Origin: Bdellovibrionales bacterium
Lineage (GTDB): Bacteria; Bdellovibrionota; Bdellovibrionia; Bdellovibrionales; UBA1609
Reading direction: 5' to 3'
DNA length: 44,419 bases
NCBI GenBank assembly: GCA_007128005.1
Contig: SKYF01000165.1
Coordinates: forward strand, 1-44,419
The first letter of the stretch is position 1. Each line of letters begins with the position of its first letter. The position numbers were made by a program, and so were the translations under genes. Below the pieces are notes generated by a model, which was given only the letters and a program-made list of their open reading frames with translations, was not told the origin of the DNA and did no database searches. Positions 42,139 to 43,663 of the stretch are shown here, piece after piece.

Positions 42139-42981
42139 CTATTCCTGAGTTGAGGGGTTTGCGGAGATCGCCTCTGGAGAGGTCTGACCCACATTTCTGC
42201 GCAACTGACACTGGTAGTGAGCCACGCCGCCGGGCCCCCCTCCTTGAGTCAAGCCAGTGCAGCTGATATCGGGGCCACGCTTTTCTGGGGCGGTCATATT
42301 GTCATGGAGAAGTCGGGCCTCCAGGCCAGTGAGGGTGACATTTATCAGTCCAGGCCGAGGTGAACTCTCGGAAGAGCTTGGAGGGTCCCATGTCAACCTT
42401 GGGCTTTGGTAGACACCTGAGGACGAAGCAAAACGGGTGGGAGAAAAGGGAAGGTCCACAAGCTCTCCAGATTTATAGTTGATGGCGACGCCGCATCTGT
42501 AGTTCCCAGAGGTGGAGGGGGCGTCTGAACTTGTCAGGGAAGTCTGTTGTTGGCAGGACAGGAGCTGGCTGCGTTTTTCTCGAATGACTAGGACTTCACC
42601 AGTTGCACTGGGCAGAGAAGCCTCTCTGGGCGATGCAATCATCTGCTCATAGAGGAATCGGGCATCCTCACCATGGAGAAAAATCGCTCCAGAGGCCCTA
42701 GGTGTGGGGCGATCTTGACGACTTATTTCCAAGGCGAGATTTTCTCCCAGGTACTGACCCCTAAGTATCAATTCTCCGTTGATATCAATAAAGTCTCCGG
42801 AATCTAGAGGTGAGAGGTCATTTTGCTTTTCAAGATTTAAAAAACTCAGTAGATATTTGCTGGAAGCCCCTCCGGGGCTAGAGCTTGTGGACTGATTCGA
42901 GTCAGAGCAGCCCACCGAAAGTGTCAGGCTGATCAGCACTGTCAGCAGGATGAAATGGTTTAAAGAGGGGGAGAGTCTCAT
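42139..42981 (-). CDS. lipoprotein of unknown function
   Basis: Lipobox SLTLSVGCSD; complete ORF ending 8 nt before the next gene. Confidence 0.65.
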   Translation of the reverse strand: MRLSPSLNHFILLTVLISLTLSVGCSDSNQSTSSSPGGASSKYLLSFLNLEKQNDLSPLDSGDFIDINGELILRGQYLGENLALEISRQDRPTPRASGAIFLHGEDARFLYEQMIASPREASLPSATGEVLVIREKRSQLLSCQQQTSLTSSDAPSTSGNYRCGVAINYKSGELVDLPFSPTRFASSSGVYQSPRLTWDPPSSSESSPRPGLINVTLTGLEARLLHDNMTAPEKRGPDISCTGLTQGGGPGGVAHYQCQLRRNVGQTSPEAISANPSTQE

Positions 42982-43098
42982 TGCCTTTTCCTTTCAATTT
43001 TACATCCTCAAAGGCTTCAAAAAAGATGCCAAAAGCAGCTCGACTTTAACTGGATGAGATCAAACACAGGCGAGGCTCAGGTCTGCTCCGAGGTGAAA

Positions 43099-43124
43099 GC
43101 CTGCTGGCCCTTCGCTCAACAGGC
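43099..43124 (-). terminator. possible hairpin downstream of the cytochrome gene and repeat element
   Basis: GCCTGTTG/CAGCAGGC stem on the minus strand with one G-U pair, followed by TTTC. Confidence 0.3.
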
Positions 43125-43165
43125 CAATTTTTGGCACAGCCCCTACAGGGCATGGCATTCATTTA

Positions 43166-43291
43166 GTGACTGGCGCGAAACCGCCAAAGACAAGGCGCCC
43201 GGCTCAAATCGAACGCAGGCGTACTTGAGCGGTACGTTGGAGTGAGATTTGAGACGAGCAACGCTGTATTTGGCGGTTTCGCGCCAGTCAC
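43166..43291. mobile_element. MITE-like element, 126 bp, no internal gene
   Basis: Perfect 23-bp TIRs GTGACTGGCGCGAAACCGCCAAA (43166-43188) / TTTGGCGGTTTCGCGCCAGTCAC (43269-43291); flanking direct repeat CATTTA at 43160-43165 and 43292-43297; nested internal inverted repeats. Confidence 0.75.
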
Positions 43292-43294
43292 CAT

Positions 43295-43663
43295 TTAGGG
43301 CTTTAGGGAGGCATAGTAGGCCGCAAGGTCCGCAATGTCCTGGTCGCTGAGTCCTGCTGCCATGGGTCCCATCAGCGGATCTTTGCGCTGGCCACTGCGG
43401 TAGGCCCTTAAGGTGTTGGCTAAGTAGACCTCTTGCTGGCCTGCCAGGTTGGGCCAAATGGGATTGGCACTGATCCCCTTGGGACCATGACAGGCCTGAC
43501 AGCTCACTGACTTGCGCTCCCCAGCCTGGATGTCACCCACCAAGGCGGCCGATCCCAAGCTCATGGTCTGGCCTTGGGTTAAGGCAAAGGCCCCCACCAG
43601 AGCCACGGATAAGCTTTGCACTGTTCGTACGAGGTTCCACTTTTTTGTTAGAGTCTTAGCCAT
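43295..43663 (-). CDS. class I c-type cytochrome (c553-like), periplasmic
   Basis: Signal peptide; CQACHGPKG heme motif; distal Met in [22 protein letters not shown]. Confidence 0.9.

Follow-up and report, generated by a model that had tools for sequence, protein, structure and literature searches.

A probable new MITE family with TANNTA target duplications, one copy of which sits at the stop codon of a cytochrome c gene in a Bdellovibrionales bacterium

Correia/NEMIS of Neisseria and RUP of pneumococcus are non-coding, foldable sequences of about 100-160 bp with inverted ends and a target duplication, and for RUP, mobilization in trans by IS630-Spn1, whose ends are similar, has been proposed (PMC2229807). 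REP/REPIN sequences with RAYT are short palindromes present in multiple copies, mostly outside genes. A tandem duplication of left-end sequence has been reported for IS1272, which also has inverted ends (PMC5678879). The element described here resembles each of these systems in those respects, the doubled left end of IS1272 having its counterpart in the A+B units of most copies. It lies in a stretch of 44,419 nucleotides from a Bdellovibrionales bacterium (contig SKYF01000165.1), referred to as the window, with the following features.

43160-43165, no strand: left copy of the target site duplication (TSD), CATTTA, 6 bp, read in the window
43166-43291, plus strand: the element, very probably a MITE in a perfect-ended variant, non-coding, 126 bp, with 27 matches in its own genome
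43166-43188, plus strand: left terminal inverted repeat (TIR), GTGACTGGCGCGAAACCGCCAAA, 23 bp, exact reverse complement of 43269-43291
43203-43210, plus strand: internal arm CTCAAATC, which pairs with 43246-43253, a pairing kept in the BJ13 relative L055
43246-43253, plus strand: internal arm GATTTGAG, partner of 43203-43210
43269-43291, minus strand: right TIR, 23 bp, inverted-repeat match to the left TIR
43292-43297, no strand: right TSD copy, CATTTA, which includes the cytochrome TAA stop (43295-43297, minus strand)
43295-43663, minus strand: cytochrome c gene, intact, 122 aa, Pfam Cytochrom_C, with the C-terminus SLKP as in the sister-species ortholog

The original prediction described an element of 126 bp that ends in perfect 23-bp inverted repeats and is flanked by a 6-bp CATTTA duplication, and these features are present exactly as described. 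Perfect 23-bp inverted repeats with arms at most 300 bp apart are expected about 2e-7 times in a random window of the same size, so the inverted ends are not due to chance; if extended, the arms match over 27 nt at 96%. When 431 kb of the genome were scanned for identical TANNTA-like 6-mers beside 10-bp inverted ends, only the window element was found, which indicates that such structures do not arise by chance. The predicted foldability also holds: the internal arms pair as proposed, and the end-to-end fold has an energy of -78.1 kcal/mol, with a z of -10 relative to dinucleotide shuffles. At a threshold of 100 aa, a single ORF reaches into the element (43143-43457, minus strand, 104 aa). It is an out-of-frame overlap with the cytochrome gene, in line with the predicted lack of a convincing internal ORF.

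The TAA of the cytochrome CDS, read at 43297-43295 on the minus strand, falls within the right CATTTA, as had been claimed. Because the duplication would regenerate the stop, the insertion leaves the cytochrome protein unaltered. A second proposal, that a native terminator at 43099-43124 had been displaced from the gene, does not hold. The T run of this stem is on the plus strand and the cytochrome gene is on the minus strand, so the stem is not its terminator; nor was the stem among the calls of the terminator scan. The cytochrome ortholog of a sister species in the same genus (G001) is 86% identical, carries no element and ends at the same residues (SLKP), indicating that the insertion sits at the natural stop. 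No copy of the element is present anywhere in the G001 genome. The expectation of a relative with an empty site is thereby borne out in part: G001 has the ortholog without the element, but its sequence beyond the stop is non-homologous to the window, so no empty site could be delimited to the base. A different gene follows the cytochrome gene in each of the two species (window 42139-43160 versus L189, G001:C138), and gene order therefore breaks at or near the insertion point.

With a 138-bp query, 27 matches of 88-98% identity were found in the own genome, besides reverse-strand echoes and fragments; 17 are whole with both flanks and 10 are cut by contig ends, giving a copy number of roughly two dozen. 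The whole copies are 125-140 bp long and have a mean pairwise identity of 93% (17 copies). The 6-bp duplication varies between sites and has the consensus TANNTA. Between the two sides, the 6-mers of whole copies match at 4.94 of 6 positions, with identity in 9 of 17 and some imperfect duplications, and those of the shortened forms described below at 4.08 of 6; the agreement of neither class was reached in any of 10,000 permutations. These data match the prediction of many copies with differing 6-bp duplications and exclude a single copy conserved in position. The ten matches at contig ends (G000 C19, C61, C24, C149, C158, C151, C186, C104, C84, and C22) indicate that the repeat causes part of the assembly fragmentation, and they could be used for contig linking. 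By the flanks read, the cut ends seem to pair as L016/L014 (TACTTT), L010/L007 (AATTTA), and L012/L018 (around TATCTTA).

In most whole copies (139-140 bp) the left end is doubled, with unit A, GTGACTGGCGCGAAA, followed by unit B, GTGACTGGCGATAACCGCC, and the shorter ones (125 bp) have unit B alone. TIRs in the other copies are 10-15 bp long. The left end GTGACTGGCGCGAAACCGCC occurs in the window copy only and renders its ends perfectly complementary; it could have arisen through loss of 14 bp from A+B or through conversion by the right end. Units A and B are identical over their first 10 bases, so in-place loss of A keeps the duplication beside B, and the duplications consequently cannot separate such loss from transposition of the short form. 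Twelve mini forms were also read, which are 20-41-bp palindromes with the ends of the element. Each size class has the consensus that would remain if a full copy, with unit A or lacking it, lost the DNA between CGCCA, TGGCG, or CGCG repeats located in its two arms, with junction microhomologies of 4-5 bp. This correspondence makes palindrome-deletion scars the best reading of the mini forms, and it is possible that a scar moved later.

The inverted ends, the variable duplications, and the dispersal in multiple copies that lack an internal transposase gene place the element among MITEs, as originally proposed. We are highly confident that it is moved in trans by a transposase that recognizes GTGNCTGGCGCGAAA and cuts TANNTA-like targets with a 6-bp stagger. 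In the proposed mechanism, the transposase would bind the ends of the gene-less element, probably use DDE-type chemistry, and belong to a partner that is presumably lost, absent, or unassembled in this genome. Later deletions between short repeats, one in each arm, would reduce some copies to 20-41 bp.

Insertion at a stop codon is common in this genome. When empty sites were rebuilt by keeping one copy of the duplication, 15 of the 29 overlapped the natural stop codon of a flanking gene, versus 19 of 600 TANNTA sites in 431 kb of the same genome. Gene calls were plain ORFs of at least 300 nt, with an identical rule for elements and null. The excess persists against non-coding sites only (one-sided p = 1e-5) and when six coding-called sites are taken as intergenic (p = 3e-4). 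Seen from the gene, the stop is formed by the first three bases of the duplication at 6 sites, by its last two bases plus the next base at 8, and by its last three bases at 1. In the second class, a TAG is kept after insertion because the element starts with G, which turns TA into TAG and allows the reading frame to survive. Of 26 classified copies, 11 are flanked by convergent genes. The bias at stop codons may reflect target choice, or the insertions that survive in this gene-dense genome may be the harmless ones. In the BJ13 genome the bias is weak (stops at 4 of 34 sites, compared with 28 of 1012 for the null from the own genome; one-sided p = 0.018), and it is not evident at the long element of JACPWY01 described below. 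Selection is therefore favored, and we do not attribute the bias to the transposase itself. A more specific account, to which we give a low probability, is that the transposase represents an as yet undescribed IS group that targets palindromic TANNTA and has G-initial ends, so that insertion into TA(A/G) rebuilds the stop and is harmless at gene ends.

The end sequence was found in many copies in only two of 141 genomes of the order, the own genome and G040, and a survey of 369 genomes of the phylum added G274, for two other genomes in all. We infer that G040 is JACTMU01 'Proteobacteria bacterium BJ13' and that G274 is JACPWY01 'Deltaproteobacteria bacterium NC_groundwater_823'. The MITEs of BJ13 (120-163 bp) have a different core but the ends and TANNTA duplications of the own genome, and two decayed relatives of the window's core (84-85% identity) are also present. 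BJ13 additionally carries a second end sequence, GGGGCTGTCCGGTAATTC (L088, L092, L093, and L143), whose elements share the TANNTA duplications and the internal core; the two ends of L143 are of different types, as though the families exchange ends. A compound array at L055 (1497-1670, G040:C8) has a relative of the window's core beside a second partial element, with nested ends. This patchy spread among genomes suggests horizontal movement or repeated loss.

The MITEs of JACPWY01 (178 bp) have the same ends and TANNTA duplications. A longer element, also repeated in this genome, carries these ends (15 bp) and is likewise flanked by TANNTA duplications. Its left end (GTGGCTGGCGCGAAACTCCCTGC...) and right end (GTGGCTGGCGCGAAAACGCAG...) are on separate contigs that pair by duplication: TAGTTA (L132/L167), TACGTA (L149/L147), TATGTA (L175/L177), and TACATA (L141/L146). 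This element is the best candidate for the partner of the MITEs, and the anticipated full-length transposon with the same ends is supported to that extent; only its two ends are seen, and its interior is absent from the bin. Six-frame peptides of these ends gave no convincing Pfam or NCBIfam family, and the long element may itself be non-coding. No transposase of the two families searched, Y1 and DDE_Tnp_1, was found with these ends in any of the three genomes, and the 22 Y1 or DDE_Tnp_1 loci read lack them. An IS4/IS5-like (DDE_Tnp_1) origin is not supported, as the DDE_Tnp_1 loci of G001, G040, and G274 lack the ends; the own genome has no DDE_Tnp_1 match. A 2.8-kb end pair at G040:C73 encloses ruvC-, ruvA-, and ruvB-like genes rather than a transposase and is probably two separate MITE remnants. 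Plasmid and phage collections contained no DNA similar to the element, and plasmids had nothing similar to the long-element ends and chance matches only to the second end family. In viral contigs, the core pattern had no match and the end pattern had five single matches, with no inverted partner in the 260 bases read. Genome-scan hits in Bacteroidetes, Planktothrix, Legionellales, and Pseudorhizobium (L138, L150, L162, and L179) also have no inverted partner and fit chance expectation.

The elements could also be REP/REPIN-like palindromes whose spread depends on a tyrosine transposase, REP-associated (or TIR-associated), that moves single-stranded hairpins. Their high foldability, the 20-41-bp palindromic forms, and one Y1 transposase match in the own genome (C105:62564) are consistent with this explanation, which is nevertheless very improbable given that the 6-bp duplications differ between sites and agree within a site. 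HUH Y1 enzymes are not known to make such duplications. The ends are missing from all Y1 loci read in four genomes, and in the sister species five Y1 matches occur without any element. Moreover, the ends read GTGAC...GTCAC, without a GTAG or CGTC tag (PMC3733652). Least probable of all is a domesticated functional RNA or terminator kept by selection at gene 3' ends, which would suit the strong fold and the placement at stop codons and between convergent genes, but the outer hairpin has no T tract after it, terminator calls are at chance level only, no Rfam family exceeds threshold (one chance-level match), the sister species lacks the element, and diverged copies fold less strongly (z about -2 in L027).

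The MITE reading thus describes a new family of an already known kind; no earlier description was found in the part of the literature covered. It adds a MITE family to a phylum that has been little studied. Its 6-bp TANNTA target could not be matched to any described family, and it is a clear example of transposon insertions on stop codons that keep reading frames intact. In descriptions of Correia/NEMIS and RUP, the ends or the targets are TA, whereas the duplication here is the 6-bp TANNTA, the end sequence is unrelated, and the copies in this genome are associated with stop codons. Unlike REP/REPIN with RAYT, the element combines untagged ends with true target duplications and has no linked Y1 gene (PMC3733652). 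For IS1272, replacement of inverted-repeat targets has been reported, with no target duplications (PMC5678879), whereas the duplications here are clear.
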